From assembly GCA_963281255.1 (NCBI GenBank), contig OY725502.1, forward strand, positions 310,001-374,000: a stretch of 64,000 bases of DNA, given 5' to 3'. The stretch comes from Aphrocallistes beatrix (taxonomy: Eukaryota; Porifera; Hexactinellida; Sceptrulophora; Aphrocallistidae). Shown in pieces: positions 25,349 to 52,766 of the stretch. The notes beneath the pieces are model-generated. The model was not told the origin of the DNA and searched no databases. It saw only the letters and a list, made by a program, of their open reading frames with translations. A program made the position numbers and the translations under genes. Every line of letters starts with the position of its first letter. Within the stretch, counting starts at the first letter, position 1.

Positions 25349-25520
25349 CAAGCACGCTTCGCTTGCTTGCGCAGCGCGGCTTGCGGACACTATGTGTCCG
25401 CAGAGTCGCCCTCCTGATTCCTGGAGTTGCCCAATATAGCATATTGTGGGAATTTGTTTACTTTGTATAAATATTGTAAACAAAACTTAACAAATAATTT
25501 CTAATTTAGACCTGTTGCAT
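25349..25520 (-). mobile_element. Hx1b repeat, copy 1 (reverse)
   Basis: Starts with the shared GC-rich Hx1 terminus (CAAGCACGCTTCGCTTGCTT, then GGACACTATGTGTCC), but its body (GCAGAGTCGCCCT, TGGAGTTGCCCAATATAGCA, TTTGTAAACAAA-type) matches 43879-44000 and not Hx1a. Confidence 0.65.
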
Positions 25521-25566
25521 GATATTTTGAGATTCCTATATTAAGTAACTATGGATTATTTACGTA

Positions 25567-25632
25567 CAGTCAGGGTCGCTTATTATGAACCCGCTTAATA
25601 TGAACATTCGTTTATTATGAACTAACCTCCTT
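25567..25632. mobile_element. P1 MITE, 5' fragment
   Basis: CAGTCAGGGTCGCTTATTAT to 'aactaacctcc', then joined abruptly to Hx1a tail sequence. The rest of the MITE is missing. Confidence 0.75.
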
Positions 25633-25724
25633 TAATCAATGGTTACCACAGGTGTCCAAAGGGCGCCTCCGGCGGACACAAAGTGTCCGCCAGCCGCGCA
25701 GCGCAAGCAAGCGAAGCGCGCTTG
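25633..25724 (+). mobile_element. Hx1a 3'-end fragment
   Basis: About 90 bp: 'atggttaccacaggtg', GGCGCCTCCGGCGGACACAA, then the terminal CAAGCGAAGCGCGCTTG. It is followed at once by the TA and terminus of the long-TIR element at 25731. Confidence 0.75.
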
Positions 25725-25730
25725 TATATA

Positions 25731-26496
25731 CTTAGGGCATTCAAAAGGTTCTCATCCCAAATCTGTATCTCAAATGATAGTGAAAATAGGATATTTTCTA
25801 TTTGTCTATTGTATTCCTTAGGGGATCAGCTTCCAATTTGTATATTGGTTTATTTTACAAGGACAATTGTTGTGGTTCCTACATTATATTTTTGTACATC
25901 GGTTTAAGGTAGTCCCTTTGAACGTGATTTTTCGGGTTCCCTTTGATATATTTCAGTTCTGAGCAAATTTAGATTAAAACTGATCCCTCCATCGAATTCT
26001 ACGCATCAACTAACATATAGGTTGAATTTTCTGAAGTATTATAGTTTGAGGCTGAGGGAATACTATGTTTTGAAGTGGTTTACTACCATTTTTGTCCCAC
26101 TTTTTGAGTGGCGAAAATTGACAAAAAATCCACTAAAAGTAGCATGATATTTTTTCAACACGAGCAATACTATTGAACACCTCCCGTTTACTTTTTCACA
26201 TTGGTTCTTAATTATTTAACCTTTTAATGACCTTATTCTACGATTTTCACAACTTTTATTCTCCAAATTTAGTTTTAAGTCATTTTCAATGGGGAGATTC
26301 CAACTTTTCGACACTACCCTAAACCGATGCACAAAAAATCTAATGTAGGAACCACAATAATTGTCCTTTTAAAATAAACCAATATATAAATTGGAAGCTG
26401 ATCCCCTAAGGAATACAATGGACAAATCGGAAATATCCTATTTTCACTATCATTTGAGATACAGATATGAGATGAGAACTTTTTGAATGCCCTAAG
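25731..26496. mobile_element. 766-bp element with about 185-bp inverted ends
   Basis: Ends CTTAGGGCATTCAAAA and TTTTTGAATGCCCTAAG are flanked by TA (25729-25730 and 26497-26498). The arms share 'ctcaaatgatagtgaaaata', 'ggggatcagcttccaatt' and 'ggttcctacatta' and run to 'ccgatg'. A one-arm relic lies at 45415-45545. A TA target suggests the Tc1/mariner group, but there is no transposase. Confidence 0.8.
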
Positions 26497-26549
26497 TATA
26501 TAAAAATAAACATTAATCGAGTTAGTAAGGGTGTCTATGAAATGTTTTT

Positions 26550-26650
26550 TCATTTATATGAAATAGAATCGTATGAATCGCATTATAAAAGCCTGATATG
26601 TGATTGGTTCTCGCTTGAACCAATGATTTTCAATCACAAATAGTCCCTTC
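26550..26650. repeat. Dispersed repeat F
   Basis: 'atatgaaatagaatcgtatg' to 'tttcaatcacaaatagtccc' recurs at 38815-38935 in the same sense, and at 32570-32690 and 51560-51625 in the other sense. Class unknown. Confidence 0.6.
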
Positions 26651-27268
26651 AGCAGAGTTATGTTTTGTAAACATTTTTTTCAGGTCAGCCAATTAAATTT
26701 CAAGTTTAGGGACTAATTTTGATTTATTTACGAGCATTGAGTAAGGTCTAACTCTATTAGTCAATAAAATCAGGGCCAACTGCGAAATTAAATCACTACA
26801 ATTTCATGGGCCAGCAGAGCTTTATTTTATAGATATTTTTTGATTCCAGCCAACAAATTTCAAGTTTATGAGTTTTAACTTGTTTACGTGCTATAATCTT
26901 CACCATATAAAGAATACGTATAAGGCCCAAATTTGGCGGAATTTGCTCCAATATCATTTCCTGGAGCGAGCAAACATTAGAACAGACGTCCTACACCGAT
27001 CATGACATAAATAATATCATATGCCAGGAGCGGCAACAATAATTATAGAATAGACATAAATGTTGATGCCATCACTAAATTGTGCAAACTACTATCCACA
27101 GTCTCAAGAGCCCAAAAATTGCACCTGGGAATTCAGGACATTCGAATACCCAAAATTCTTCATTTGCTTTAAAATATATGGTTTCATATAAAAGAAAATT
27201 ATTATCCCTCCCGGTGACATATTTGTACATTCCTGTGTATTATGGTAGCCTTGCCCACCCTATAAATA

Positions 27269-27807
27269 TCCTTACTATTAAAACTCGATTAATGTTTGTG
27301 ATATATCTATATCTGTAACGAACTGATTGAAGAAACTGCTGGACGCAGAAAGCAGATTTTTGGCATGTGGGAGTCTTTTAGCTATGGCTCCACTATGTTC
27401 TGAGCTCGGGAGCAAAATGTCGACTCATCATGGAATTATGACGTCATCGTCACATTTTTTAAAAGTTAAGCAATACAGTTATTCTTGATAACTCAGCCAT
27501 TATAGGAGATAGAAGGCTGAAGTTTTAATAAAATCTGTATACTAAAATACCTCACATATGATGCAACTATCATCAAAAATGATGACTCATCACTCTGTTA
27601 TGACGTCATCATTACGCATCAAAATTTTTAAAATTGACAAATTTGGTGATTTATCCAGTGATATCGATTTTAACAGTAAGATAGACGTATTTAGAGATGT
27701 TATCTACCTTAAAATTAACCAATGGTGAACCCAGGCGACCGAAGGGAACCTCCAGCGGACACTAAGTGTCCGCCAGCCGCACAGCGCAAGCAATCGAAGG
27801 GCGTTTG
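27269..27807 (+). mobile_element. Hx1a repeat, full copy (E then body, same orientation)
   Basis: Begins TCCTTACTATTAAAACTCGA after an A, has a short TA-rich spacer, then CTGTAACGAACTGATTGAAG. It carries TGACGTCA twice and TGACTCA once, then the GC-rich hairpin tail (mutated to GAAGGGCGTTTG) followed by T. Confidence 0.8.
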
Positions 27808-27963
27808 TAGATATTAGTTTCAATAACATAATAAAGCAACTTACACAAATAGAAATACTAAATAGGAAATACAGTACTAATTCCACATCAAATCCGTATC
27901 ACGTTAGATTAATCAATTTTAGATACGTAACTACAAATCCAAGTTAGAGTTCTAGATAACTGC

Positions 27964-30900
27964 TTAAATTAGATCTTTCGAAATAGCAGATAAGATTTCT
28001 GGATCCCATTTATGCTTTACATCAGTTATCCTCGAATAGTGTTTTTGCTGAGATGCAAAACACCTCTCATCCCAAGCCCATGTGTGATCCTCAAATTCAT
28101 ACAAGGATTGCTGAACGGCATTTACATCAAATTTTGTACACATTTCAGGCGTATTATTGAAACCATAAGAGTAGCAATAGCCTTCTAACATCAAACTGTT
28201 CCTAGTTTTCAGGGATTGCTCATTATGTAGAGTTGGATCGAACTCTGGTTCAAGTTTCATCTTAAAACCATAGACATACTTATAATGAACAGATAGTTTC
28301 GGAGAAGGTACTCTCATTTCATCGGTAACATCAGGAAAGTCAGTTATTTCATCTGGACCATCAGCACCTATCTCTGTGTTTTTTTCCATATGCCACACAT
28401 ATTCATCTCTATGGAAATACCAGATAAATGTGACTATTATATTAAATTGTGAAATAGGGCCTGAAGATGCAATAGATTGAAATACATCATTAAAGGGTTT
28501 TTCATGAGCTTTTTCAATATAATCCCTCACAGCAGCTAAATGCTTAACCTTAACAATTACAGGGAAGTAGTTCATCGCTCTTACCATTTGCTTTTTCTTC
28601 AAAAAATTATAGGTATTTATCTTAGTATCACTCCAAAAGCCATTTCTTGCTGCACCAAAATATCCCCAAATGATAGGCTTATCGTCTTCAAACAATAAAT
28701 CATCATAAATTAAAGTGATAAAGAGTGTATCTGTGTCTGTAAAGCCGACATATTCCCCAGTCGAATACAGATCAGCCCAAAACATACTCCACTGCATCCT
28801 GTTGTGGCCATTCGATTCGTAGTAAGAATTAGTCTCTTCAAAGTATACAGCCGGATATGGATACACCTTTTCTTTCTCTTTACCAAATTCATGGTCCTTT
28901 TCTTTTTCATCATCTAGAATCATCATCAGATTAAGTGGGCTGACTTCATGATGCCAAAAAAATCTTAAACTCCAGTCAAATACCAGATGATAAAAATCTT
29001 TCAGTGCGGAATTATCAGCTGACATTCTCAAATATAGCTCTAACTTTCCTCGGTTAGCAATATCAGATTTACTCTTAATGTAAGTTATTTGGCAACCATC
29101 TTTTTGACGCTGAAAATATTCATCATTTTTTTCAGGGGTAATTTTTGGAAACTTGTAACCAGCCATTTCGAGATCTCCTATCCACTTTCGAATAGAATAA
29201 ACTTCTTCTTCTTCCCAAAACCAGATCTTATAGAATTCTATTGCTAGCTCTTCCATTCTCTCTTTCAGTGAATCTGATTCACTCTTCCATTCATGAAGAA
29301 AGGTGATTAGATTATCAGGAACAGACACATGGAGTTCTTCATTTGGAATCAGTGTTGACTCTGTATCCAAAAGATATTCCATCAACGGTTTTGAGACAGC
29401 TATATTTGTTCCGGTATCCCACATCAATCTTTGCGTATAATATGCTCTCATAGCGTCTGTTAGCTTATCCTTAGTAGTGAATGGGAGGTGAAGACCAAAG
29501 AATGAAGAGTAGTGGTGTAGAGTAGAATGACTATCATAGGGCATTGGTGTTCCTATGCAAGCGAAATAATTACAAAATGTCACTCGATAGACTGTTAGTA
29601 CAGCAATATTAAGTAACTCACAGGTCACAGAATGTGATATTTGAAATATACACAATGAATACCATAAAGTAATCATGTAGATTTGGTTTGATTAACATCT
29701 AATACGTAGTATCCTTACTATTAAAATCGATTAATGTTTATACATGTACAAGCGCGCTTCTGAAATTTCTAATAATAAAAAAGGTTACAATGACGTCATA
29801 ATATATGTGTATATATATATATATATTAATCGAGTTTTAATTGTAACGATTTGTTTCCACATTCGTTTGGAAGTTTTTTATTATTTTAATTAATTAAACA
29901 ACCCTAATGTATATTATTTCTATATATACAGTCGACTCCGCTTAATAGGGTCACATCGGTCAGAGGATATTTTGACCCGATTAAGCGGAGAACCTATTAA
30001 CCGAAAATATTTTGTATTAGCTTCTATGTGTGATAGCTATTCCGGTCCTGCCAAAAGTGGCCCGATTAAGCGGTTGACCCGATTAAACAGTGGCCCTATT
30101 AAGCGGAGTCGACTGTATATACAGGTATATATGTTTAACGAATTGATCAAAGAAACTGCCAGGCGGTACAGAAAGCTGATTTTTGGCATCTGAGACTCTT
30201 TTGGCTATGGCTCCACTAAGTTCTGGCCTAAAATGAAATTGTCGACTCATCATGGAATTATGACGCCATTGTCACCTTTTTTAGAATTAGAACTTATCAA
30301 AAAATGATGACTCATCACCCTGTTATGACGTTATCATTACTCATCAAAAATTTAAAAATCGACAGACGTATTTAGGGAGATGCTATCTACCTTATAATTC
30401 ATCATTGTCGGCCTAAACGCCCGAAGGCCACCTTTGTCGGACACAAAGTGTCTGCCAGTCGTGCAGGGCAAGCAAGCGAAGGGCGCTTATTACTATTAAT
30501 TGCATTGTAGACATTTTTTCTATGCCAACCAATCAGGCTTCAAGTTTTGGGATTAATTATGGTTTATTTTAATGCAATGAGTTTGGCATAATTCCTTGGT
30601 CACAAAAGTCGCAGGCCATAGCCTACTACATATAAGGCCTCACAGTAACTTGCGGATTTTGGACTAGGGATGCGGTAGAAGATGGTTGAACTAATACATG
30701 AGCTGCTTTAAATCATGAATCATACACAATAGAGCTTCGGAATGTATTACGTACCAGCATATATAAATATGGTATCAAAGTACCCACAGCCTTTATTAAC
30801 ATTTAGATTAGTCATCATATGATTACGCAACAGGTCATTCTAAGGACAATTTTAGCGATTTTCGAAGCTGTTTTAACCCTATTTCTAAATGGTATTAAGG

Positions 30901-33900
30901 TGTGATTTTTGTGTAGGACCAAGATTAGTACGAGTTGATTTAAAAATTTAGAATTTTTCAATGGGATGTTGTTACATTCCTGCGTTACTATGGTAAAGCA
31001 TTTTGGGCAGTTTGGGCCATTTCGTGCAAACTGTAGTAACTAGATCTTCAAATTTGATCGTGTTTGATAGGCAATGGACTACTTACTATTAGGTGATAAT
31101 ACAACCTGAACGTCTAAATTCAACGGATTTTGAGTTATGGGTTGATTTTAAGAATGTGACCAAAACACTAAATTGTCGCATAACTCTATAGTCTGTTGAT
31201 TTAGAAGTTTAAACGGTATTATTACCTAATAGGAAGTAGCCAATTGCCTATCAAATACGATCAGATTTTAAGACCTAGTTCTTACAGTTTGCAGGATATG
31301 GCTCAAACTGATCAAAATGCTTTACCATAGCAACGTAGGAATGTAACAACATTCCATTCAAAATTCAAAATTTTTCTAATCAACTTGCACTAATCTTAGT
31401 TCTACATAAAAATTCTACCTTAACAACATTTAGAAGTAGGCTTAAAACAGCTTAGAAAATTGCCAAAATCGTGCTTAAAATTACCTGTTGCGCAATGATA
31501 TGATGACTAATCGAAATTTTGACAACGGATATATGTACTTTGATGTCATGTTTATACTATATGCTGCTAATACATTCTTAATGCCTATCCTACATGATTA
31601 ACGATTTTAGGCTAATCGTGTATTAATACATTCGGCTATTACCGCATCCTTGGTTATTTACTGTGAGGCATTATTAGAGTAGGCTATGCCACAGCCTTTA
31701 TTAAAATTTAGATTCATCATATTATTGCGCAATAGGTTATATTTGTGCAAAATTTATTGATTTTCAGAGGCCGTTTAAGGGCAATTCGAAGTGTTTTATT
31801 ATAAAATATTCCTTCCGCCTAGAACTGAGCTATGAATGAGCTAGTGCTTGGATTTTTTCATGGAATATTGCTACATTCCAGTGCTGCTATGGAAACGTAT
31901 TTGGTCAGTTAGGGTCATATCTTGAAAGCTGCAAGAGCTAGGCATTCAAATTCCATTTGATAGCCAATAAACTACTTCTTATTAAGTGATAATATATTCA
32001 TAATTTTTACGTCTAAATTCAATGGTTAAGTTATTAGACAATTTGTCATATTGGTCATATTTGGTAATTTGTCGAATACTATCTCGTAAACCATTGAAAG
32101 ACCCATGGACTTTTAGTAGTCCCACGATTCGATTCATACTAGAATGAACATTTTAGGTTTAAGGCATTACTTTTTATCTTTATCGAAATGCCCTGTTCGA
32201 GGTACAGTGTTTTTGAGGTACATTACTACACAAATTCTATAGAAAAATAATAGAAAATAAGTTAATTTAAAAAATCGATCCTAAAATTCAACCATATAGC
32301 AAATATCTTATATATTAACACTCTAGGATATTTTGTTTGTTTGTTTGTTTGTTTGTTTGTTTGTTTGTTTGTCCGAATTGATTGAAGAATTGGCAAGTCG
32401 TAGAGATACGAAAATTGGCATATACTAGGTGTCAAATGATGAATCTAGGATTAAGTTCGAAGATCTAAGCGAAATGTTCACACCTCGCCGAGATAGTGAC
32501 AAAATGTGCTGACCAATCAAATTAAATTATTTTATAATGCAAATACATTGGAATAAAATAGTAGTGACTTATGCATACAATCAAAGAACTATTTGTGATT
32601 GAAATTCATTGGTTTATGTGAGAACCAATCAATTATCAGCCTTTTATAATGCCATTCACACGATTCTATTTCATATAAATGATTGAATACTGCTATTTTG
32701 AGTATAATTTGATTGTTAACAACAATTAAAGTGTATTATATGCTACGATCAATCAATTCGATCATAAAATAACTTTTAACGACATGGACTGAAATTGATT
32801 ATTTAAGTATAATAATCTTTAGCAATGTGAACTTTGTGTATTCAAATTGAGCTTACATTCAGGATTAGTTGACTTAATACGAAGTAAATTATATTTATCA
32901 CGAAACAAAATTTCTGCTACAGTTCTGATTTAATAAATGTAACCGTAGACAAATGACAATCCAGCGTACATAGTATAAAACAAGAAAGCGACGTATTGTT
33001 TCTATAATATCCCCAAGCGCCCACTGGGTAAATCTGCGGACTCGCAGTGTCCGCAAGCCGCGCAGCTCAAGCAAGTGAAGCGCGCTTGTGTTTATTAATA
33101 TGATTTCAATTGATAGTATGTACTAAATATTCGCATCCATCAAACATATTCTCTCATTTTACTCAATTTTTATCAAAGTTCTATGCGAAATATACTAAAT
33201 ATCGAAATTTGCCACTTTAAAATAGGAGTAACTTGGAGGTCATTCTACTACAATGCTAACAATAGAAATTGTATTCGTGAATTAGCTTTGAGCCTTTGAC
33301 AATTAGGTAATCGATAGTGCTCAATTCATTGTAAAGGTCAGATTATATGCAGTCATTAATTCCGAATATGAAGCAAGATAGAAGCAAATGTCCACAAATC
33401 ACTGTACTCCAGACCATGGGTTTGTCTAGCACCTTGCTCCTCGGACGATACCAGACTGGCACCTATAAGTGCCGACCGAGCACCTAGATAAACCCCTACT
33501 CCAGACATGATACTTTTGAAGAAGGATCAAGTCTTACTATCTCTCGTACCATAAAATGGTAATCCTCCATGCATTATTTGAATCGGGAGAATATGAAGAA
33601 TTTATATGAAGTGTCGAAAATATTTTGACTACTCGATAAGTTACAATTATGGACAGAGTTACGAACTTATTGAACGCCCAAAGTGATTAGGTTTATTTCA
33701 TACTATCCAAGTATATTAAATTCTGCTGTTAAACTAAAACATACAATATTCTTCGGTGATAAAATTTGTTACATTTTGAGGCAAGGTGTGAAAATATGGA
33801 TAATTCTTATATTAAGCTAGAGAGTGATTCTAACTTGCTTATGTGACCCATTGAGTTAGGTATAATCCCTATTAATCAATAAAATCAAAGCCAACCGTAA

Positions 33901-36900: not shown

Positions 36901-38071
36901 TATTTCTTAAAGTTTGAGTACATATTTCTTTATGAATAGCCCCACTTTAGTATTATTCGTATACAAATTTTCATGGTGGTTGAATACTTTTGTCCTAGTA
37001 CAATATCCTTACTATTAAAACTCGATTAATGTGTATATATGTATGTATGTAGTTATATATATATATCTGTAACGAATTGATTGAAGAAACTGCCAGTCAT
37101 AGAAAGCTAATTTTTGGCATGTGGGAGTCTTTTGGCTATGGCTCCAGTAAGTTCTGAGCTCAGAGCAAAATGTCGACTCATCATGGAATTATGACGTCAT
37201 TGTCACATTTTTAAAAGTTAAGCAACAGAGTTATTCGAGCATAACTCAGCCATTATAGGAGATAGAAGGCTGAAAATTTAATAGAAACTGTATACCAACA
37301 TACCTCACATATGATGCAATTATCATCAAAAAATGATGACTCATCACTTTGTTATGACGTCATCATTACTCATCAAAATTTTAAAATCGACAAATTTGGT
37401 GATTTTTTGTGCGATATTGTTTATAACAGTAGGACAGACGTATTTAGAGATGTTATCTCACATATAATTAATCAATGGTGACCACAGGCGCCCGCAGGGC
37501 GCCTCCGGCGGACACAAAGTGTCCGCCAGCCGCGCAGCGCAAGCAAGCGAAGCGCGCTTGTATATATCTATATCTGTAACGACTTGATTGAAGAAACTGC
37601 AAGGTGTAGAAAGCTGATTTTTGGCATGTGTGAGTCTTCTGGCTATGGCTCCACTAAGTTCTGAGCTCAGACGAAAATGTCGACTCATCATGGAATTATG
37701 ACGTCATAGTCACGTTTTTCATAATTAGAAATTTCAGTTTTTCGACCATAACTCAGCCATTTTAAGTAATAGAAGGCTGAAATTTTAATAGAATGTGTAT
37801 ATTTATATACTTCACATATGATTCAACTATCATCAAAAGATGATGACTCATCACTCTGTTATGACGTTATCATTACGCATCAAAAATTTTAAAAATTGAC
37901 AAATTTGGTGATTTATTTGTGCGATATCGATTATAACAGTAGGACCGACGTATTTAGAGATGTCATCTCCCTTATAAATAATCAATGTGACCCCAGGCGC
38001 CCAAGGGCGCCTCCAGCGGACAAAAAGTGTCCGCCAAACGTACAGCGCAAGCAAGCGAAGCGCGCTTGTAT

Positions 38072-38109
<38 letters not shown>

Positions 38110-39962
38110 GAATTCGCATATTAGCAACTCGAGTTTTGCTCATAAAATGGTTGCTAAAACGCGAAGTTGCTAATAAGGGAACAGAAATAACACAAAATCT
38201 TCACCTGGGACCTGAAGATTGGTTGCTAATAGAGCAATATTGCTAATAAGCGAATTCCACTGTATATATATCAGGGTGCTTCAAAAATTCGTCAGTTTTT
38301 AGATGCACACTCTTCACCTTGATCACCAAGTATTCACCATAAAATTTTCAAGCAAATTGGAGATGATTTAGTGGTCACGCAAAGTAGGCTCCCCCGCGTG
38401 CAGATTTATAATGGGATATGTCCTGGTTGGGGCTTAAAGTTGTAGAAGGCGTACTTCTGATAAATCCGTCAAGATGTTCATATCCAATGAAAAACTGAAA
38501 TGTTATTTTGTGGGGACCAAAATACTACACTAATGTACACAACGATTATTATGAAAGTATTAATTGTGGGTCAATATATCATACAACTAATTGTATGTAT
38601 TGAATAATCATTTAGTAAAAATCCTGTGATTTCGTAATGTATGAATTGACTACTGTAATGATAATTATTTAGTTTGGATCAATATCCACGACCATTACGT
38701 ATATGCATTGAATATTGTAATGCGGATGACAGAAGCAATTCCAGGCCACAACGTTAGCAACAATTACAGCGTTTACATGTTATGATGAATCAATTTGATC
38801 ATAAAACCATGTACGTATATGAAATAGAATCGTATGAATCGCATTATAAAAGTCTGATAATTGATGGTTCTCACATGAATCAATGATTTTCAATCACAAA
38901 TAGTCCCTTGGATTGTATGAATTGATAATGTAAATCACTACTGTTTAGATCCCAATGTATTTATATTATAAAATAATCGAATTTAATTGGTCAGCACAAT
39001 TTGTTATGTATCTCGGCGAGGTGTGTTTCTTGTAAAATAAACAAACAAAAAAACAATGAGTTTTAATATATAAAATAATAAATTTAAGAAAATTTTGTAT
39101 TAAACGCATACAGTATGTATTAATATTGATATAACTAACCTCCTTCCATTACCAAAGGTAATTTGTCAAATTTCTGCTCAGTATATCTTTCGGGAGTGCC
39201 ATCATGTTTAGTCATAAACTGCATAACACCAATTTCTCTTCGATTTACCATGCAAACCTCGAAACGGAAATTGTGGAGATCCCACACATATCGGTCAGGT
39301 AGTTCTTCCTGCTGCAACAACTCCCCATGATCAGAATAATAATACTTGGAAGGATCAAATAAGTTGTTTGAACCATTGACAAGTAAAAACTCCTCCAGCG
39401 ACTCCGTATAAGGAATTTCCTCTTCTGTTAGACGGTAGTCTTCGTGTGCATCAAAAATAAGCTTAGCTCCATGACGGATAGCATAGATGTATCCGATATT
39501 TTTTAAATTTGTTAAGGAGTGAAAAGTGATGTTTTGTACAGAACTATAACCTGGGTCGGATTCAACTAACTCTTTTATTTCTTTTGTTGCCAAAACTACG
39601 ATTTTTTCACTGTCAATTGTAAAAAGATCTCTATTCTGATCAGTATCTAAGAGTATGACACAGCACCATTTTGAACCTTGTGCTTCAGAAAGTGACGTTA
39701 AATAATTTACAACGGTCTCTGGCTTACGAGTTGCTACGATTACGACCCAATTTTCACAAGAATTAACTTCTTCCACTTCAATTGGTGAAAAGTGATGGAT
39801 ATCATTTTTAAAAATCATTTTATCTTCAAAAACTCGTTGATGATTTCTGGCTACTGCGAAATTGACCTCTGAATAGTAGTGATGAAATAATAAAATTGCG
39901 ACAATGCATGATGTAAGCAAAATAAAAATGCGAATTTTGGATTGAAAGAACTTCATCGACAT
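27964..39962 (-). CDS. STELLO/DUF288 glycosyltransferase-like protein, two exons with a 9.6-kb intron
   Basis: Exon 1 is 39962-39140 and exon 2 is 29552-27964. The donor GAAGGAG|GTTAGT and acceptor CATAG|GAACACC join in phase to give PLVMEG-GTPMPYDSHSTLHHY, a stretch continuous in DUF288 proteins. 803 residues in total. The N-terminus has a signal anchor (residues 11-27). CENWVVIVATRKP (69-81) and KNIGYIYAIRHGAK (154-167) are hallmarks of the DUF288/STELLO first half. Then come WDTG and, near residue 545, FTDTDTLF, a DxD-type acidic motif. In plants STELLO proteins act in the Golgi on cellulose synthase assembly; the animal role is unknown. The intron (29553-39139) is packed with repeats but shows no other exon. 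A 44-bp minisatellite lies about 350 bp upstream of the start. Confidence 0.85.
29708..29852. mobile_element. Hx1 relic: two E segments face to face
   Basis: TCCTTACTATTAAAATCGAT (plus) is followed by the first 13 bases of a reversed Hx1 tail, a deletion, a short body piece with TGACGTCA, a TA run, then the E segment reversed (ATTAATCGAGTTTTAATTGT). It shows E at both ends of one unit. Confidence 0.6.
29929..30115. mobile_element. Pogo-type MITE, family P4 (CAGTCGACTCCGCTTAATAG)
   Basis: 187 bp with ends CAGTCGACTCCGCTTAATAG and its complement, flanked by TA, inserted in the TA-rich stretch just before an Hx1a body. A miniature derivative lies at 62425-62464 and degenerate relatives at 22693-22740 and 53990-54140. 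Confidence 0.85.
30128..30488 (+). mobile_element. Hx1a repeat, internally shortened
   Basis: Starts 'tttaacgaattgatcaaaga', lacks part of the middle, keeps TGACTCA-like 'atgactcatcacc', and ends in a decayed tail (GAAGGGCGCTTA, then T). Confidence 0.7.
30614..31690. mobile_element. Fold-back element, about 1.08 kb
   Basis: The two halves are inverted copies almost to the centre. Outer ends are GGCCATAGCCTACT and AGTAGGCTATGCC, next CTCACAGTAAC / TTACTGTGAGG, then GATGCGGTAGAAG-type, CGCAACAGGT / CCTGTTGCGCA, and inner TTTACCATAG blocks meeting near 31170. Half-copies lie at 5555-5680, 31690-32060, 43383-43563 and 45890-45965, and a small version at 45615-45895. No coding region. Confidence 0.8.
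31690..32060. mobile_element. Half of a fold-back element, abutting the previous one
   Basis: CACAGCCTTTATTAAAATTT, GCGCAATAGGTTA, 'gatagccaataaactacttcttatta' (in pieces) and 'gtctaaattcaatgg' follow the left arm of 30614-31690 in order and stop near the position of its centre. Confidence 0.6.
32330..32372. repeat. (TTTG)n microsatellite
   Basis: About ten TTTG units, immediately before a 200-bp stretch beginning TCCGAATTGATTGAAGAATT that loosely recalls the start of the Hx1a body. Confidence 0.9.
32690..33088 (+). mobile_element. Hx1c repeat, copy 1
   Basis: A body of about 310 bp (GACATGGACTGAAATTG, 'cattcaggattagttgactt', CTGCTACAGTTCTGATTT) ends with CCCCAAGCGCCCACTGGGTA and the shared Hx1 terminus (CGCAGTGTCCGCAAGCCGCG ... 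GCGCGCTTG). Its second copy is 52375-52766. A segment of about 60 bp (32719-32777) is inverted between the two copies. Confidence 0.75.
33412..33510. repeat. Dispersed repeat A, short copy 3
   Basis: 'agcaccttgctcctcggacg' through 'gaccgagcacctaga' matches the second half of 757-970. Confidence 0.65.
33985..34125. repeat. Dispersed repeat E2, best copy
   Basis: 'tttggtgcaattcggtcaaa', 'gaatttccagggacgagcag' and 'accgatcatggcatatggca' recur, degenerate, at 26935-27030 and in reverse at 22600-22690. Confidence 0.5.
34506..34574. repeat. Perfect 24-bp inverted repeat with 21-base loop
   Basis: ATGGTAGAACCCCATATGGA (first 20 of 24) is followed by an AT-rich loop and its exact complement. It lies in the STELLO intron within a run of 'gtggcac' repeats (34410-34500). 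It could be a very short MITE or a strong RNA hairpin. Confidence 0.8.
35160..35270 (-). mobile_element. hAT-like G-rich end
   Basis: On the minus strand it reads AGGGGCGGATACAGGGGGGG, then GTCCAGGGGGGCCATGG. This is a common terminal pattern of invertebrate hAT MITEs. Only one end is clear. Confidence 0.45.
35960..36300. repeat. Degenerate tandem duplication, about 175-bp unit
   Basis: 'accatatatgga(aa)ggtgtg' + AAAACCGCAAAAATCAA occurs at about 35977 and 36138. Each is followed by a 'gacttcctattcaa.aataatatatttc' phrase (36063 and 36229). Confidence 0.6.
37006..37560 (+). mobile_element. Hx1a repeat, best full copy
   Basis: E segment TCCTTACTATTAAAACTCGA after A, then a TA-rich spacer and the body with TGACGTCA (37195 and 37361) and TGACTCA (37338). 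It has a perfect 9-bp stem GGCGGACAC/GTGTCCGCC and ends GCGAAGCGCGCTTG followed by T. Confidence 0.85.
37561..38068 (+). mobile_element. Hx1a repeat, tandem second body without E
   Basis: Follows the previous copy directly: TATATATCTATATCTGTAAC links tail to body. It carries the same motifs with one CRE mutated (TGACGTTA). A head-to-tail array without a second E segment suggests tail-to-body read-through or rolling-circle-like duplication. Confidence 0.75.
38105..38262. mobile_element. Pogo-type MITE, family P5 (GAATTCGCTTATTAGCAAC)
   Basis: Right end TTGCTAATAAGCGAATTCCACTG in two parts, then TA. Left end GGGGAATTCGCATATTAGCA, with its first bases merged into a (TA)n run next to the Hx1a tail. 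The interior repeats GTTGCTAATA. Confidence 0.75.
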
Positions 39963-40315
39963 TTTACGGGTTCAATCCTATCTAGAGCCTATAATATCTC
40001 TTTACTGTAAATTCTATTCAATATAATATATAGTATTTAAACGTTTTTACCGCTGTATGATCATTGTCTAAGCCTATGCATATGAATATACATCTTACAT
40101 TGCACTCGCTGTAATGAAGAATATGGGTTTTCAAGTTGCCAATAATGAAGGAATAGTTTAATTATACACACTGAAGACTGAACCAAACAAAACTACTGAG
40201 CATTATCTCTCAAATTAGTAATTGCCACCTTAAATTAAGTTCTAGTTTTGTAAATAATTTGTCCTTGAGCTACTGCTATCTTTAACCCGCCAAGATCTCT
40301 CATCAAAATTCCTAC
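39963..40315. other. Upstream region of the STELLO gene
   Basis: AT-rich. On the minus strand no clean TATA box is seen within 60 bp of the ATG. No coding potential was noted before the minisatellite. Confidence 0.4.
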
Positions 40316-40738
40316 GTCATAGTCCAAGTGGGGTCCAAATGGACCCCAGGGATTTTCAATGACATCATAGTCGCAGTGGGGTACAAATGGACCCCAGGGA
40401 TTTTCAATGACATCATAGTCGCAGTGGGGTACAAATGGACCCCAGTGAATATGACGTCCTAGTCGCAGTGGGGTACAAATTGACCCCAGTGAATATGACG
40501 TCCTAGTCGCAGTGGGGTACAAATGAACCCCAGTGAATATGACGTCCTAGTCGCAGTGGGGTACAAATTGACCCCAGTGAATATGACGTCCTAGTCGCAG
40601 TGGGGTACACATGGACCCCAGTGAATATGACGTCCTAGTCGCAGTGGGGTACAAATGGACCCCAGTAATATGACGCCCTAGTCGCAGTGGGGTACACATG
40701 GACCCCAGTAAATATAACGTCCTAGTCGCAGTGGGGTA
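40316..40738. repeat. 44-bp minisatellite, about ten units
   Basis: The unit is roughly GTCCTAGTCGCAGTGGGGTA + CAAATGGACCCCAGTGAATA + TGAC. Each unit holds an internal GGGGT...ACCCC hairpin. The first two units are a longer variant with GGGATTTTCAATGACATCAT. The repeat stands 350 bp upstream of the STELLO start. Confidence 0.95.
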
Positions 40739-41243
40739 TTGGTGGGTTAATTAAATAATAATTCTGACAAATATTGAGGTAATCGTCTGTTACGTTGAGG
40801 GCGCCTGTTTTGATTCTCAGTTTGCCTTCGAAGGTGTTGTGTCCGCAGTGGTCTCAGATTTCAGAGTTGAGGTAATTAATTTCGAGAGGCTATCAATGTC
40901 TACACCTAGTTGTGTATTGAGTTAATATCAGCATCTCTTTGTAGGATATATTCGGAGAGGTCGTTATGGGATGGCTCCACTGTATATACTTGTATATAGT
41001 TACAACCGAGCTTCGGGCACTTATGTAGCACGGATAGGACGCTTCATGTCCATAGAATTGCCCTGTAAGTGCCTGGTGATATAAGAGAATCAATGACGAC
41101 AAACCCTGATCTGTTAGATACATATCTAGCTGAACATTGCTGAAGAAAAAAAAGGTCCTAACATTTTCAAAGCCATTATTGCTGAGATCAGATCACAATA
41201 CCCTGTTGTTTACTCTGACTGTTAACACACTAGAACTATTGAA

Positions 41244-41425
41244 AAATTGACAAATTTGGTGATTTTTTGTGCGATATTGATTATAACAGTAGAACAGACG
41301 TATTTAGAGATGTTATCTCTCCCATACTTTGTAATTAATTAATGTGACCCAGGCGCCCGAAGGGTGCCTCCGGAGGACACAAAGTGTCCGCCAGCCGCGC
41401 AACGCAGGCAAGCGAAGCGCGCTTG
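41244..41425 (+). mobile_element. Hx1a 3' fragment
   Basis: Begins in the body at 'aaattgacaaatttggtgat' and ends in the normal tail GCGAAGCGCGCTTG then T. Confidence 0.8.
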
Positions 41426-43878: not shown

Positions 43879-44000
43879 CAAGCGCGCTTCGCTTGCTTTC
43901 GCTGCGCGGCTTGTGCACACTTTGTGTCCGCAGAGTCGCCCTGCGGGCGCCTGGAATTACTCAATCTAAACTATTTTGGGAATATATATATTGTAAACAA
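43879..44000 (-). mobile_element. Hx1b repeat, copy 2 (reverse)
   Basis: Starts with the common tail (CAAGCGCGCTTCGCTTGCTT), continues GTCCGCAGAGTCGCCCTGCG, and shares 'tattgtaaacaaa' with 25349-25520. Confidence 0.7.
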
Positions 44001-44024
44001 AGGTCAACGAATAATTTCTCGTAT

Positions 44025-44240
44025 GGATCCGAAAATATGATATTCGGAATCTACACTCCTGAGAACCCCATATCAACCGTTGAAAGCAAGTTTCTAGGAT
44101 ATTTTTGAGATTTGTTTACTATATGTATCTATTGAAAACAAAAGTAAACAAATTAATTATCAAATTTACCCGAAAATATGATATTCTAAATCTACACCCC
44201 TGAAAACCATGTTACCCGTTGGAAGCTAGTTTCTAGCAAA
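44025..44240. repeat. 140-bp tandem duplication
   Basis: CCGAAAATATGATATTC + 'ctacac.cctgaraacc' + 'ccgttgraagc.agtttctag' occurs at 44030 and 44170. Confidence 0.7.
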
Positions 44241-44368
44241 AATTTCAAAATTCGTCAAGAGGTGTGAAAATATATATATAAAGGTGTGAAAATATGCACA
44301 TAATCTTTTTTATTGCTATACGTTATGATACATTTAAAATATCAAACAAAGGTTGTGGCTTTGAAGTA

Positions 44369-44933
44369 TCCTTACTATTAAAACTCGATTGTTATTTGTG
44401 TATATATATATATATATATATATCTCTCTGTAACGAATTGATTGAAGAAACTGCCGGGCTCAGAAAGCTGATTTTTGGCATGTGGGAGTCTTTTGGCTAT
44501 GGCTCCAGTAAGTTCTGAGTTCAGAGCAAAATGTCGACTCATCATGGAATTATGACGTCATTGTCACATTTTTAAAAGTTAAGCAACACAGTTATTCGAG
44601 CATAACTCAGCCATTACAGGAGATAGAAGGCTGAAATTTTAATAGAATCTGTGTACTAACATACCTCACATATGATGCAACTATTATCAAAAAATGATGA
44701 CTCATCACTTTGTTATGACGTCATCATTACGCATCAAAAATTTTTAAATTCACAAATTTTGTGATTTTTCGAGTGATATCGATTAGCACAGTAGGACAGA
44801 CATATTTAGAGATGTTATCTCCCTTATAATTAACCAATGTGACTCCAGGCGACCGAAGGGAGCCTCCGGCGGACACAAAGTGTCCGCCAGCCGCGCAGCG
44901 CAAGCAAGCGCGAAGCGCGCTTGTTAATAACAA
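44369..44933 (+). mobile_element. Hx1a repeat, full copy
   Basis: TCCTTACTATTAAAACTCGA after A; a pure (TA)n spacer; the complete body with two TGACGTCA and one TGACTCA; an intact tail hairpin. Its tail has an extra CG (AAGCGCGAAGCGCGCTTG). Confidence 0.85.
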
Positions 44934-45047
44934 AGACGACATATTGTAGTGCCGTACAATGATTTCCATTGCGATAGTGCAGTCATATACACTGCCTGAA
45001 CAAAAGTATTCGTACGCTCCATAATTCCCCATACAAATAGTTATAAT

Positions 45048-46525: not shown

Positions 46526-47119
46526 CAGGGTGTCCCATAATTATTGTCGTATGAATATTTTAAACTTCTGTTTATAGTATTCCTGGTTCGCTTTCTATAT
46601 ACTTTCAGTAACTTATTTGTAGTATACAGAAGAGGTATTGGAGAAAGCCTATAGTACTGCGGTGAGTCGTTCTAGGAATACAGGGGATACTTTGACCAGG
46701 AAGTTATTACCAGACATGTCTCAAACAATTTTCATGCACGACGGTGCTCCTGCACACACCGCAAATCGGACACAGGAATGGTGCAGGAACAACATGTCTG
46801 GTTTCTGGGCCAAAGGAATATGGCATGGCAACTCGCGGGATTTAAATCCGATAGAAAATCTGTGGAGTATTTTGCAGGAGAAGCTGAATGAGATGAAGTC
46901 CTCAACGAATCTCCAACAGTTATCGGCGAATCTCAAAATTGCCTGGGCTAATATCAACCCCTCGATCCTGGAGAATTTAGTGGCTGGGATGCCAGCTCAT
47001 ATTGCTAAATGCATACAATTGAATGGAGGATATATTGGTAAATAATGGTTAAGATCTGATACATTTAACCTATAATAAGACAACATAGAAACATACGACA
47101 ATAATTATGGGACACCCTG
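46526..47119 (+). mobile_element. Internally deleted Tc1/mariner element
   Basis: 594 bp with terminal inverted repeats CAGGGTGTCCCATAATTATT and AATAATTATGGGACACCCTG, flanked by TA. An open frame (46638-47045) keeps the C-terminal third of a DDE transposase: FMHDGAPAH with the second catalytic Asp, then SRDLNPIENLWSIL with the third acidic residue. The N-terminal DNA-binding half is gone, so it is non-autonomous. The empty site is seen in repeat R copy 1 near 18416. Confidence 0.9.
46638..47045 (+). pseudogene. Tc1/mariner transposase C-terminal fragment
   Basis: 135 codons. DGAPAHTANRTQEW and DLNPIENLW are diagnostic for Tc1-like transposases and lie about 35 residues apart as in DD34E enzymes. 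The helix-turn-helix region and the first catalytic Asp are missing. The apparent first 30 residues do not resemble a transposase start. Confidence 0.85.
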
Positions 47120-47552
47120 TAAGTGGAGAGTATTAGGTACCAATAACTTAACAAACGATATTTACTTGCTTGTGCCCTGTGGAACATTTTGTGTTTGCTT
47201 CAGTCGCCTCTTAGGGGATCTCCTCTATCAAAGAATCCCTTTAACCTACGTCTATAGCAGGAAATGTTTGAGTAAGTATCATTGATGTTGAACTGAGAGG
47301 GTTTTTGGATAACTGACGTTCTACCCGAAGGATGCCCACGCAAACACTGCAAACATGATTGCATGATTATACGAATGGCCATCACTGATTCTAGCGTCTC
47401 CACATACACAATATTGTCAATACTATCAGATTTCTGAAGCCAATATAACGACTCGCACGATTCGGAACATTTGATTTGAAGGCTTACAGACCACCAAAGA
47501 AACCGCGACTCTGAAGTTTGCGAAGCTTCACAGGGCCGTAGCCACCGGTACG

Positions 47553-47652
47553 GTTACCCAGACCACTTTTCACCAACTTAACTCCCAAAAATACAATTTT
47601 GTGCGGTCGGACTGGTTCAACCGGACAACTTCACACCTGGTGTCTACGGCCT
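47553..47652. repeat. Dispersed repeat B, copy 2
   Basis: Matches 970-1075: CAGACCACTTTTCACCAACT, 'aattttgtgcggtcggactg', 'caacttcacacctggtgtct'. Confidence 0.55.
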
Positions 47653-47664
47653 TGCTACACCAAA

Positions 47665-47795
47665 GTTGGAGCTGATAAATGGGCAAGGCTATCGTGGTCA
47701 GACGAGTGTTCTTTCCAGTATTTTGGAGAATGCAAGAATTACATTCGAAGACCAGTATTGCAGCGTTTTAACCCGTCACTTTGGCACCATGTCAA
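47665..47795 (+). pseudogene. Second Tc1-type transposase fragment
   Basis: WARLSWSDECSFQYFG and YIRRPVLQRFNP resemble the part of Tc1 transposases around the first catalytic Asp (V.FSDES.F). About 40 codons remain. It runs by chance in frame into the Helitron relic that follows. Confidence 0.6.
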
Positions 47796-47799
47796 AGTG

Positions 47800-48861
47800 A
47801 TGAAATTGACCATAAATATGCGTCTTCGAATGGATTCATGTCAGGATCATGAAGAGGTGAGTAACTTCTCTGACCTTTTATTGAGGGTCGGAGAAGGCAC
47901 TGAGCCTCATGATGAGAATAACATGATTCATTTAGATCACAAATATGTATTACGTGGTGAGTCTATTGCAGACTTAGCCACTGCTATATATGGTAACATT
48001 AAAGAACACTTTAATGATCGTGATTACGTCACGCCACGTATTATGATGTCTCCTAAAAATGAGACAACTGAAAAGATAAATAAATACGTGATTGACCAAC
48101 TTCCTGGTGAAGCAAAGGTATTGCTGAGTGCAGACTCAGTAGATACCAGTCAGGCAGCTATGTATCCTACTGAATACCTTAATTCTATTACGCCTACTAG
48201 CTTGCCTCCACACCGCCTCTACCTTAAGGAGTATGCGTCAATTATACTCTTGCGCAGTCTCGACCCCACGAATGGGATGTGTAATGGCACGCGATTGCTA
48301 ATTAGAGCATTTTTAAACAATGTTATACGTAGATGCTGAAATTGCCACAGGTATCCATAGTGGCAAACGAGTGTTCATTCCTCGCATTATAATGACTCCT
48401 TCTGAAACAGATTTTCCGTTTGTTCTCAGACGGAAACAGTTTCCCATTCGCCCTGCCTATTGTATAACAATTAACAAAGGGCAGGGCAGAGTCTAGAATA
48501 TGTTGGTATATTTCTACCATCTCCTGATGCTATATTCAGTCATGGGCAATTGTACGTTGCCCTGAGTCGAGTTAAGAACAATAAGGGCTTGAAAGTCATG
48601 GTTTGCGGAGCAAACTATTCCACTTCGGGTGGCGTTTGGATTAGGAATGTGGTCTACCGTGAGGTATTCCAAAACCATAATATCAATCCATCCCTTAATG
48701 ATACCATGGATCTTTCTCAAATGGATATATCATTGAGTGAAATTTCATTTTCTACTGCAGACTTTAGGAGTCGTTCTGAGGATGACAGGGATCCAGCTCC
48801 CAGTCAACCCTCAATTCCTATTAGAGCAGCAGTATCTCTAACAGGTACTGTCAAAAGATGA
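47800..48861 (+). pseudogene. Helitron helicase (PIF1-like) C-terminal remnant
   Basis: Fragments in more than one frame: KLTINMRLRM, LLRVGEGTEPHDE, IYGNI, NETTEKINKYVIDQLPGE, LLSADSV, YPTEYLNSI, LPPHRLYLK, LLRSLDPTNGMCNGTRLL, then ITINKGQG, FSHGQLYVALSRVKN and GLKVMV. These follow the order of motifs in the RepHel helicase of Helitrons (motifs IV-VI). The Rep nuclease part is absent and the frame breaks near 48318 and 48490. It could be the remains of the autonomous relative of Hx1, but no shared end was found. Confidence 0.8.
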
Positions 48862-49690
48862 GATATCTTGCTCAGATGTTTTCTACGACTTTCTCTCAAT
48901 TAATTTATTTGATTGTGAGTTTTATTATTTTGTAGAATAATTATATGTTACAAACATTTAAAACTAAGTTTATAATACTAATTAAGCAGAAACCTTTGCC
49001 AGTAAATGTAATTGCTCAGGTTCTCAGATATTGAATTATAATTTGCCATATAATGCACAATTCCTATTATTGGAAAACAATTTGATTTTATATCTTCTTT
49101 TAGCTCATTGAATAACGAACGGACAGCTCACACAAGAGATAGGATAGCATACAACAAACGAGCCCGAGGACAGATGAAATGTATTAAAATCGATGAAATG
49201 AAGTACATGTACGAGTAATAGCTTAAATAACAGGATTATCCACACTGCAGAAATAATTGCAAACTTCTATTACGTCAGAATCATCAAAGGTTTAAGAATA
49301 ATTATTTAAAGATTGTCTCCCAGAATGTCTGAATGCATTATAGTAGCACATATCTATTTGTTTCAAGATTATTGTATTATATTATTCAATAAATACATTT
49401 ATTTGAGTGGTGTTAATAATTAAACGACTTTGGAATGGCCCAATTTACTTTACATTAAGGATTATTCTAGAATCTAGATAAATATATTAAAGGTATAATG
49501 CAACATTTATAATGACATATGTAATGTTATTAGAAAGAGATAAACTCATTAGGAATGTCAATACGGAATAAGAATATTATATATACAGTAATACTTTAAA
49601 TAGAGACAGAATATATATAGGCACATAGCGGGGATTATATTAATAAACTTAAATAATAGAAACCCAACTGACCAAAACACGTCTCCATAG
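48862..49690. other. AT-rich intergenic DNA, nothing recognised
   Basis: No coding exon, inverted repeat or known repeat was identified here. Confidence 0.4.
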
Positions 49691-49704
49691 CAACACTGGA
49701 ATTT

Positions 49705-49985
49705 TTGAAGCAAGGTGTGAAAATATGAGTAATCGTTACCACATGTAGAAATATACACGATATAAAGCCTGTCTGTAACCTGTTTCGGGATTAACCTATG
49801 GACGAAAGCCGTCGATCGCACATGTCACTAGAGCATCTCGTAAGATATTAACTGCACTAAAAACCGAAGGTAAGAAAAACCCGGTGACAGAAAAAAACGG
49901 TTTCGACGGTCTACTTGTAGACCACTGAGTCACCACTTAAGGTGGTTACTCCGATAAATCCGTTATAGAGGAAAATATTGGGGGC
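49705..49985. other. GC-richer stretch with several short perfect hairpins
   Basis: Contains GGTCTACTTGTAGACC, CCACTTAAGGTGG and 'acggtttcgacggt' close together, with runs such as CCTGTTTCGGGATTAACC. It begins at the recurring motif GCAAGGTGTGAAAATATGA (also at 33782 and, in part, 44281). Neither a tRNA nor an rRNA by eye; it may be a structured RNA or a MITE interior. Confidence 0.35.
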
Positions 49986-50199
49986 AGGGTTCTCAGAAGT
50001 TTGCCACTATACTAAACGATACTCAAAAAACTTCATATTGAATGTACTACATACATACACAAGTATATAGCATTTACAGTAGTTTTTATCATGCTTATCT
50101 CTTGCGTAGAAGCGTGTAATAATATAAAGCAAGCTAGCCTATTTAGCCTATTTCAAAACACAATTAGTCTACAAACAAACAAGAGTAGCTAAGCTTATT

Positions 50200-51274
50200 C
50201 TAATTTAAGGTCCAGTTTTGGAAGAAATGAGAATACTTCCTGATAGGGTGTTTAGGAGGGTGAGTGAAGCAGTAAGTGCGGGATAATTTTTCGCAGTAAG
50301 AGAGAGGGTTATCGAAGAATTCTTGAATAACTTTCTCGTTAGTAAACGAGTCAGGAATGTCTTGAACAACTTCTGTAATTAACCTCCTCCACGTATCCTC
50401 CTTTACCAAAGTATCTTTTGGATATGACCTATGCACAGTGTTTAGTAGATCTACTGGAGTGAACATCACTGCATGTCCACGGAATATCAATTCCACTTTA
50501 ACAATCTGGTGTCTCTGACTAATTGTCCAATCTAGCGAATCGTAAAATGTTGTATAAGGAAGAAGCTGGCGCTGCGTCTCGATGGTATGCATTAAGCATC
50601 GCATCAAAATGGACAACTGTGAGGTATAACGGCAGTTTATTCCCAATGACTGTGCGATTGGGAGGTAGAGGTTCACTCGATTTGATATGTGGAGAACATA
50701 TCCTTTGATAGGATTGGATGGTTGCATCAGCGTTGTGGTGAGTTCTGTAATTTAGCACTCCAACTGCTGGCTCATGGTTAAAGAGGAAATGTTCGAAAGA
50801 GCGCAATGGTGGAATCGATTTCATTTCAGGAGGTGCATACTTCTCATTATAAGATATTTGGACATCATCATCCAAGAGAATATAATAGAGATAGTTAATA
50901 TTTCTTGATCGTGCTACTTTGTACAGAGTGTTCCTACCTGCGTTCAAACTGGTTGCTGTCTTTGAATAGATGTGTTCCATATGACTCGGGACTGAATCCA
51001 AACACTTTTCTTTAAAACTCAAAACTATCACATCACACATGCATTCATCAGGACTGCCGAAAGATTCATTTCTCTTTAATTTTTCTGGAATACATTGTTC
51101 GGTCTGCACAAGATAAACAAATAGCTTATTAGGTGCAACGTCTTTGGGCACAAAAGTTATTCTGATTTCTTCGACGTCATCATATCGAACTATCCACACT
51201 AGCAACAATACGAGATTCATTATTGCTAAAGCGATAAGGATTTTCCCGATTTCCTGTAAGCTGAGACATTTCAT
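50200..51274 (-). pseudogene. Glycosyltransferase-like gene, frameshifted duplicate
   Basis: About 90% like the intact gene at 22899-23972, in inverted orientation 27 kb away. The N-terminal anchor has diverged most (MKCLSLQEIGKILIALAIM). The DDD motif and the C-terminal half are kept. Near 50565 it lacks two bases compared with the intact copy (AGCTTCTTCC against AGTTTTTCTTCC), so the frame shifts in the middle of the luminal domain. It is otherwise well preserved, so the shift is recent, allelic, or a sequencing error. The promoter TATATAAAG is retained. Confidence 0.85.
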
Positions 51275-51623
51275 TTTGGACCAATTCGATAAAAAAAACC
51301 AATAAACAGAGTAGAAGTGTTGATATAAAACTTCTCACTCTTTATATAAGGACTGTTTACTGAGGTTTTAACTCGCATGATGGAATGCAATAACATGATG
51401 CTTACGGATTTTCTAAGTTATCTCCAAGTCACGAGATACTCACTTGCCTGGTCAACTATTTGATAGTTCCGATTACAAATGATTGTGCAACTGGGGAAAA
51501 ATCCGTGACAGGAAATGACATAAGTACGTAACAAGATATTTTAGCAGTCAAAACGCGTTTCGACTAGTCCAATCAATTATCAGACTTTTATGATGCGATT
51601 CACACGATTCTATTTCATATAAA

Positions 51624-52359
51624 CAAGCGCGCTTCGCTCTTGCGCTGCGCGGCTGGCGGACACTTTGTGTCCGCCGGAGGCTCCCTTCGGTCGCCTGGGG
51701 TCACATTGGTTAATTATACGGGAGATAACATCTCTAAATACGTCGGTCCTACTGTTATAATCTATATCGCACGAAAAATCACCAAATTTATCAATTTTTA
51801 AAATTTTGATGCGTAATGATGACGTCATAACAAAGTGATGAGTCATCATTTGTTGATGATAGTTGCATTATATGTGAGGTATGTTAGTATACAGATTCTA
51901 TTAAAATTTCAGCCTTCTATCTCCTATAATGGCTGAGTTATGCTCGAATAACTGTATTGCTTAACTTTTAAAAATGTGACAATGACGTCATAATTCCATG
52001 ATGAGTCGACATTTTGCTCTGAGCTCAGAACTTACTGGAGCCATAGCCAAAAGACTCCCACATGCCAAAAATTAGCTTTCTATGACCGGCAGTTTCTTCA
52101 ATCAATTCGTTACAGATAGATAGATATATACAGTCAGGGGGTCGCTTATTATGAACCCGCTTAATATGAACATTCGTTTATTATGAACTAACCTCTTGGT
52201 CCCAATTTCATTTTTTAGATAGGATTTGTATTGAATCAAGTTCGCTTAATATGAAGTATCTCTATTATGAACTGATTTTTTGGTCCCCTGGTGGTTCACA
52301 ATAAGCGACCCTGACTGTATATACACACATACACATTAATCGAGTTTTAATAGTAAGGA
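51624..52359 (-). mobile_element. Hx1a repeat (reverse) split by a P1 MITE
   Basis: Tail at 51624, full body with two TGACGTCA and one TGACTCA, then a TA-rich spacer holding the MITE at 52131-52317, then the reversed E segment (TCGAGTTTTAATAGTAAGGA). Body and E are co-oriented, as in the plus copies. Confidence 0.85.
52131..52317. mobile_element. P1 MITE, copy 4, nested in Hx1a
   Basis: CAGTCAGGGGGTCGCTTATT to GCGACCCTGACTG, flanked by TA. It sits exactly in the TA-rich spacer of the Hx1a copy. Confidence 0.9.
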
Positions 52360-52374
52360 TAATTGAATCCAGTT

Positions 52375-52766
52375 ATTTTGAGTCTACAATTTGATTGTTA
52401 AAAGTTATTTTATGATCGAATTGATTGATCATAGCATACAACACACTTTAATTGTTATTAACGACATGGACTGAAATTGGTTGATTAATCAAGTAGGGGT
52501 ATAATAATCTTTAGTAATGTGAACTTTGTGGATTCAAATTGACCTTACATTCAGGATTAGTTGACTTAATAAGAAGTAAATTCTATTTATCACGAACCTA
52601 AATTTTCTGCTACAGTTCTGATTTCATTAATGTAACTGCAATTCAACATTAGTAGAAAATAAGAAAGTAGGTATTGTTTCTCTAATATCCCCAAGCGCCC
52701 ACTGGGTAACTCTGCGGACACGCAGTGTCCTCAAGCCGCGCAGCGCAAGCAAGCGAAGCCCGCTTG
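52375..52766 (+). mobile_element. Hx1c repeat, copy 2
   Basis: Matches 32690-33088 except that 52400-52459 is inverted relative to it. Ends in CCCCAAGCGCCCACTGGGTA and the common tail. Confidence 0.75.

Follow-up and report, generated by a model that had tools for sequence, protein, structure and literature searches.

Unlike repeats with one palindromic 3' end in the sponge Aphrocallistes beatrix: probable non-autonomous members of a RepHel-OTU Helitron family

A 64,000-nucleotide stretch of the Aphrocallistes beatrix genome (contig OY725502.1, positions 310,001 to 374,000, or C16:310001-374000 in our numbering; hereafter the window) contains short repeats, here called E, Hx1a/b and Hx1c, that have unlike bodies and end in the same palindromic sequence. 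It is very probable that these repeats are non-autonomous Helitrons mobilized by an autonomous Helitron of the same genome, in which a Rep nuclease and a helicase (RepHel) are fused to an OTU domain. The initial annotation of the window had remarked that the repeats recall Helitrons, and this is borne out by a RepHel partner with the same ends and by insertion between A and T without target duplication.

The 20-nt core of the shared tail, GCGCAGCGCAAGCAAGCGAA, has 13 matches in the window at up to three mismatches and none in 100 shuffles; a looser scan of the window finds 14 tails. The genome-wide collection of tails that the initial annotation had proposed yielded 3,696 exact copies of the core in the assembly searched (100.5 Mb in 28 contigs), compared with none for the reversed control. 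We analyzed 127 distinct tails, which are not a random sample because they were taken from the first 30 places on contig C1, 30 head-to-tail junction loci, the Rep loci and the window. Clustering of the sequence upstream of the last ~105 nt assigned 102 of them to body E, the commonest carrier, six to Hx1c and nine to Hx1a/b (among these the window tail at 25724, which has an E-type end and may be misplaced). The rest are two autonomous elements and eight singletons, one of which is a third autonomous copy. The observation of one 3' end on unlike repeats is confirmed, and extends to E, which carries the same tail as Hx1a/b and Hx1c. The idea of three unrelated bodies behind this end stands only in part: Hx1a (tail at 25349, minus strand) and Hx1b (tail at 43879, minus strand) are one body, and Hx1c (tails at 33088 and 52766, plus strand) is a separate one. 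Even Hx1a and Hx1c differ only in the middle, their left end being common to both.

CTTG closes 111 of the 127 tails and CTAG two, so the usual end is CTTG and not the CTRR of Helitron1. T lies directly 3' of 124 of these tails and next to 3,421 of 3,476 exact cores genome-wide. The 5' terminus begins with TC: E starts with TCCTTAC, whereas TCTTATA opens the autonomous element as well as Hx1a and Hx1c (TCTGATA in one of the four autonomous copies). A precedes the exact E head, TCCTTACTATTAAAACTCGATT, at 3,479 of 3,657 places in the genome. Among 110 E heads examined individually the preceding base is A in 76, G in 32 and C in two, and 30 of the 32 G-preceded heads are head-to-tail junctions, which were partly selected for in sampling. 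The left end of Hx1a and Hx1c reads TCTTATATATTAA.A..C.AGGAT or close to it, followed by a T/TTTG-rich stretch and CGAATTGATTGAAGAATTGG, in five of six Hx1a and three of five Hx1c copies scanned; the same scan did not detect it in the window copies at 25349, 43879 and 52766. The autonomous element begins in the same way, so that all three have both kinds of end in common and differ in their middles.

Such a widely shared tail might alternatively be a mobile 3' module, exchanged between unrelated repeats through recombination or gene conversion without whole elements having transposed. The autonomous element, which gained an E-type tail beside an older inner one, could be read in this way, and for single tail swaps the explanation may hold. 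As a general account it is very improbable, given that 86 of the 110 E-type heads have a tail 385-1,479 nt downstream, that left and right ends jointly obey the A/T rule, and that empty sites of whole elements exist (see below); for the copies that have them it is wrong.

A profile search with the Helitron Rep family (PF14214) gave 106 matches in the genome. One autonomous copy, C7:513922-523431, was read end to end from adjoining stretches and is 9,510 bp long. It contains a single open reading frame (ORF) of 1,922 amino acids at element positions 441-6209, with the motifs HAH at 716, YLYKY at 851 and Walker A at 1211. Six Pfam matches over the whole ORF at E values up to 0.001 include Helitron_like_N (2.6e-59), PIF1 (1.1e-78), Pif1 2B and OTU (PF02338, residues 1776-1872, 8.6e-07), and none of the six is an endonuclease family. 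The Rep matches that of Helraiser (7lcc_A) with an E value of 6.5e-102 over 276 amino acids, the HUH motif and both tyrosines being aligned, so that the protein has the two-tyrosine HUH Rep and PIF1-type helicase of Helitrons. The left end follows A in all four autonomous copies compared (C7, C4 and two on C2). The right end falls on the same base, GCGCACTTG, in the three copies compared (C7, C2 and C4), with T next to it and different flanks beyond. The left end is the Hx1c head and the right end is an E-type tail: the autonomous RepHel element with the same tail that the initial annotation had thought worth seeking is present, and the coding partner of these ends is a RepHel Helitron, not a reverse transcriptase or DDE transposase element.

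Within the window, the first 353 nt of the complete Hx1c copy (32306-32658) are 92.7% identical to the autonomous 5' end (345 nt). The helicase relic at 47.8 kb, which had been linked to the tails on first inspection, belongs to the same family as the autonomous element (96.1% nucleotide identity over 1,089 nt). Across the Rep locus, C7 shares 98.5% identity with a C2 copy and 97.0% with a C11 copy, a sign that the family may have been active fairly recently. The autonomous element has two tails in succession: a decayed inner one, AGGCGCCC..GGACAAGCAGTGTCTG..AAGCCGCGAAGCACAAGCAAACGAACCGTGC, and directly after it ~120 nt of an E-type end. Both tails are complete in C7 and C4, and the C2 stretch starts inside the inner tail; from these copies, the outer tail is the end in use. 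The pair fits terminator bypass, which has been reported for Helraiser (PMC4778049). The E segment may have arrived by insertion and deletion or by template switching.

The OTU domain raises the question of whether the short repeats could instead be DINE-1-like elements of the Helentron/HINE group (Helitron2 clade), moved by a Helentron or proto-Helentron. An OTU cysteine protease domain is common in this group. OTU domains are reported for Helentrons (PMC4067079, PMC9741609), and the 5' microsatellites and palindromic 3' end of the sponge repeats recall DINE-1-like elements as these are described in PMC4067079. However, the same account gives Helentrons an insertion site between T and T, subterminal inverted repeats and a C-terminal endonuclease, none of which was found in the sponge family. 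Insertion is between A and T, as the bases before the exact E heads and after the exact tail cores indicate. No asymmetric or subterminal inverted repeat was detected, the longest match being 6 nt in the autonomous element (reached in 28% of shuffles) and 5 nt in E (68%), and an AP endonuclease family is absent from the six Pfam matches. We therefore consider a Helentron origin unlikely. A proto-Helentron reading of the family may hold, as a proto-Helentron of Phytophthora is reported to insert between A and T and to end in CTAG (PMC4067079).

Empty sites between A and T, which had been proposed as a check, were examined for one autonomous copy and two E copies of the window, and none of the three has a target duplication. 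When the flanks of the autonomous copy on C4 are joined, 12 of 16 matching rows span the join uninterrupted, the best over 95 nt at 96%. (This copy sits in a repeat that, by eye from its translation, resembles a Tc1/mariner transposase gene.) For the E copy at 51624-52359, four loci (L096, L081, L025 and L013) provide ungapped empty sites, joined at A/T without duplication, and window positions 32641-32717 are a further one, aligned with a single gap that lies outside the join. The E copy at 44369-44923 has an ungapped empty site at L028 (89%), again A/T and without duplication. The joined-flank search gave 528 matches, of which only those of the two named E copies of the window were used; among the matches listed, most represent E inserted in TA microsatellites of E, where the exact site cannot be fixed. 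These sites also bear on the possibility that the repeats are miniature inverted-repeat transposable elements (MITEs) or fold-back elements that depend on a DDE transposase for movement, with the hairpins as remnants of inverted repeats. High copy number, short length and palindromic ends would suit such elements, but no inverted repeat joins the two ends, the informative empty sites are free of target duplication, and the protein-coding element that has these ends is of the RepHel type. This explanation is already contradicted, and we give it almost no credence.

The lowest-energy fold of an E-type terminus has three palindromes. The first, GGCGCCC-GAA-GGGCGCC, is weak in the Hx1c example; the second is GGCGGACAC-AAA-GTGTCCGCC; and the third is GC-rich and stops short of the terminus by 2 nt in E and by 4 nt in Hx1a and Hx1c. 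An alternative fold of the last stretch, CAAGCG-AAGCG-CGCTTG, reaches the final base. The GTGTCC hairpin had been taken to be terminal. In fact it ends 33 nt before the 3' end, and the palindrome nearest the terminus is another one. Pairing is kept in 87.6% of cells (2,214 of 2,528) across 98 distinct tails, counts that lean to better-preserved tails because they rest on an earlier set of 102 tails, from a scan that skipped weaker matches, and five added by hand. The number of paired cells does not exceed that in shuffles (2,214 compared with a mean of 2,198 and a maximum of 2,217). Changes on both sides of a pair occur in 23 cells, compared with a mean of 10.6 and a maximum of 19 in 300 shuffles, and the terminal palindrome has none among the 98 tails. 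The hairpins are conserved, and covariation is modest proof of their structure. A narrow search of the literature on doubled Helitron hairpins found no account of a triple 3' end, which is a thin basis for novelty.

Some elements of this family are stacked head to tail. Exact junctions of GCGCGCTTG with TCCTTACTATTAAAACTCGAT, with no base between them, number 88 in the genome. Insertions spread evenly over AT dinucleotides would be expected to hit a resident head ~0.7 times, a rough figure that assumes ~10.4 million AT sites (from the AT frequency of the window) and 3,731 insertions. In the 30 junctions read in detail, A precedes the upstream head in all 25 scorable cases, and T follows the downstream tail in 25 of 26. 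A tail with an extra CG is carried by the upstream unit in eight of 26 junctions (the other four could not be classified), compared with 310 of 3,731 exact tails genome-wide (Fisher p 0.0009). In six of these eight the downstream tail is standard, and in two it also has the extra CG.

We rejected rolling-circle concatemers of one element as the source of the stacks. Units of the same junction have a median identity of 92.0%, compared with 91.8% between junctions (15 junctions with both units 450-700 nt long, 100 sampled between-junction pairs; 91.5% and 91.3% under a looser rule). This similarity alone is weak evidence, since a burst from one master copy would give an equal result, and the differing extra-CG tails in six of eight junctions are the stronger argument. 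A simple account is ordinary A/T insertion at the resident's own left boundary, and therefore the upstream unit would be the newcomer. Insertion of this type is one of two options offered for an adjacent pair of unlike maize Helitrons with a CTAG/TC junction (PMC2267711); that is one pair, compared with 88 exact CTTG/TC junctions in the sponge genome. For plants and bats, PMC5876387 and PMC4067079 mention Helitrons arrayed in tandem. We found no published junction count like 88, although counts for other genomes were barely searched.

More tentatively, the resident A/TC boundary could be a preferred landing site, with Rep recognizing its own nick site. Stacking would then place unlike elements together and fresh tails beside old ones and, with terminator bypass, let members of the family exchange 3' ends; the autonomous element, with its inner and outer tails, would be one product. 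We regard this extension as possible, though somewhat less likely than even. Several stacked or tail-bearing loci deserve mention in their own right. At C7:513922 (L096) an Hx1c head stands directly after the autonomous tail, so that two unlike members of the family are stacked. At L024:761-1001 one E body is preceded by several consecutive E heads (TCCTTACTATTAAAACTCGATTATTGTA... and ...GATGATTGTATATA...), with A in front of each. A diverged tail ending at L011 position 2653 (plus strand), GCGGACAGTCTGC ... AAGCGCAAACAAGCGAGATCGCTTG before T, is on another body and perhaps represents a second CTTG tail family.

Several points weigh against full confidence that the autonomous element mobilizes all of these repeats. 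The evidence for mobilization is comparative throughout. BLAST aligns E with the autonomous element over no more than the last ~120 nt of E, and the likeness of their left ends is at the level of motifs. The CTTG terminus and the placement of the palindromes are unlike the textbook Helitron1, which has CTRR and a single hairpin ~10-12 nt before the 3' end. There is also a second RepHel lineage (L035), whose protein is 62.6% identical to that of the first, and E may depend on it. We nevertheless suspect that E is mobilized by the first protein. The second lineage has an open frame and was seen at L035, L092 and L104 (C2:3994281-4001300, read in part). By eye it has an OTU-like C-terminus, and tandem repeats of ~77 nt follow its ORF. 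Immediately upstream of that ORF, and in the same orientation, is an E-like 3' part whose tail has decayed.

For the Helitron reading we propose the following scheme, in which the cutting chemistry is modeled on work on Helraiser. Rep, an HUH nuclease with two tyrosines, would nick the left end at A/TC, and the helicase would peel off one strand. The palindromic 3' end may signal termination, upon which Rep would cut after CTTG and before T, and the strand or a circle would join into an AT dinucleotide that is not duplicated. Whatever body lies between a usable left end and a palindromic tail would be movable, hence one tail on many bodies. Bypass of a tail could explain the decayed inner tail and the ~120-nt outer end of the autonomous element.

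Features of the family in the window, with strand and state
Positions	Strand	Feature	Description
18972..19090	-	E-type tail	
19515..19579	-	Tail	on a body outside the clusters
25349..25505	-	Hx1a, 3' part	tail at 25349; ~155 nt align with the Hx1a/b cluster
25632..25724	+	E-type tail	interrupted copy; upstream stretch clusters with Hx1a/b or, in another clustering, alone
27269..27807	+	E, complete	head TCCTTACTATTAAAACTCGATTA after A, tail before T
30369..30489	+	E-type tail	diverged
32306..33088	+	Hx1c, complete	begins with TCTTATATATTAACACTCTAGGAT after A; tail followed by T
37006..37560	+	E, complete	last 120 nt 93% identical to the autonomous 3' end
37951..38068	+	E, 3' end	further copy
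41301..41425	+	E-type tail	
43879..44368	-	Hx1b, 3' part	body as Hx1a; interrupted by E 44369-44923
44369..44923	+	E, complete	inside the Hx1b copy at A/T, no target duplication
47776..48854	+	Helicase-region relic	autonomous element positions 4497-5581, frame broken
51624..52359	-	E with both ends	inside Hx1c at A/T, no target duplication; by eye holds another inserted repeat
52360..52766	+	Hx1c, 3' part	split by E 51624-52359; 5' fragment just left of 51624

Other features of the window were seen as well. Beside the helicase relic, positions 46526-47120 hold what by eye is the decayed remnant of a DDE transposon; its ends are inverted (GGTGTCCCATAATTATTGTCGTATG), and a frame at 46623-47045 is transposase-like. 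An inverted-repeat element at 25722-26505, with 172-nt arms at 94%, starts at the end of the E-type tail (25724). Three genes resemble glycosyltransferase genes by eye (22893-23972, 39135-39971 and 50200-51334), two of which share an inverted repeat of 618 nt at 96% (22990-23607 and 50563-51180). There is a tandem array with units of 44-48 nt at 40314-40753, and a frame at 19816-20433 resembles mitochondrial ATP synthase subunit a by eye, possibly a nuclear copy of mitochondrial DNA.

Judged by its ends and its protein, the sponge family appears Helitron1-like, Helraiser being the named protein compared. Like Helraiser (Helibat1), the bat Helitron1, it has a two-tyrosine HUH RepHel, a 5' TC, insertion between A and T without duplication and a palindromic 3' end. 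Helraiser is described as ending in CTAG, with a single palindrome of 19 bp at a distance of 11 nt from that end (PMC4778049), whereas the sponge family departs from this in its CTTG end, its triple palindrome and an OTU domain fused in the ORF with no endonuclease. HELPO2 of the fungus Pleurotus ostreatus, which we liken to it by description alone, is reported to share AT insertion, RepHel and the CTTG 3' end, and differs in having a subterminal hairpin (PMC4289320). The same Pleurotus study grouped Helitrons found with HelSearch into families by a common 30-bp 3' end (PMC4289320). CTTG was also noted in de novo Helraiser ends and "also seen with maize Helitrons" (PMC4778049). The earlier suggestion of an undescribed variant is only weakly supported, as CTTG is known from HELPO2 and de novo Helraiser ends. 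Given that CTTG ends and adjacent Helitrons have been published, this is a new family and not a new kind of element, and it is best called a new Helitron family with unusual termini.

The family explains why unlike repeats have one kind of end, and it gives thousands of short repeats a coding parent. Its termini suggest that families of this sort would escape searches in which CTRR and a single spaced hairpin are required. With closely similar autonomous copies and many stacks, the A. beatrix genome holds a natural record of how Helitrons end, overrun their ends and exchange them.

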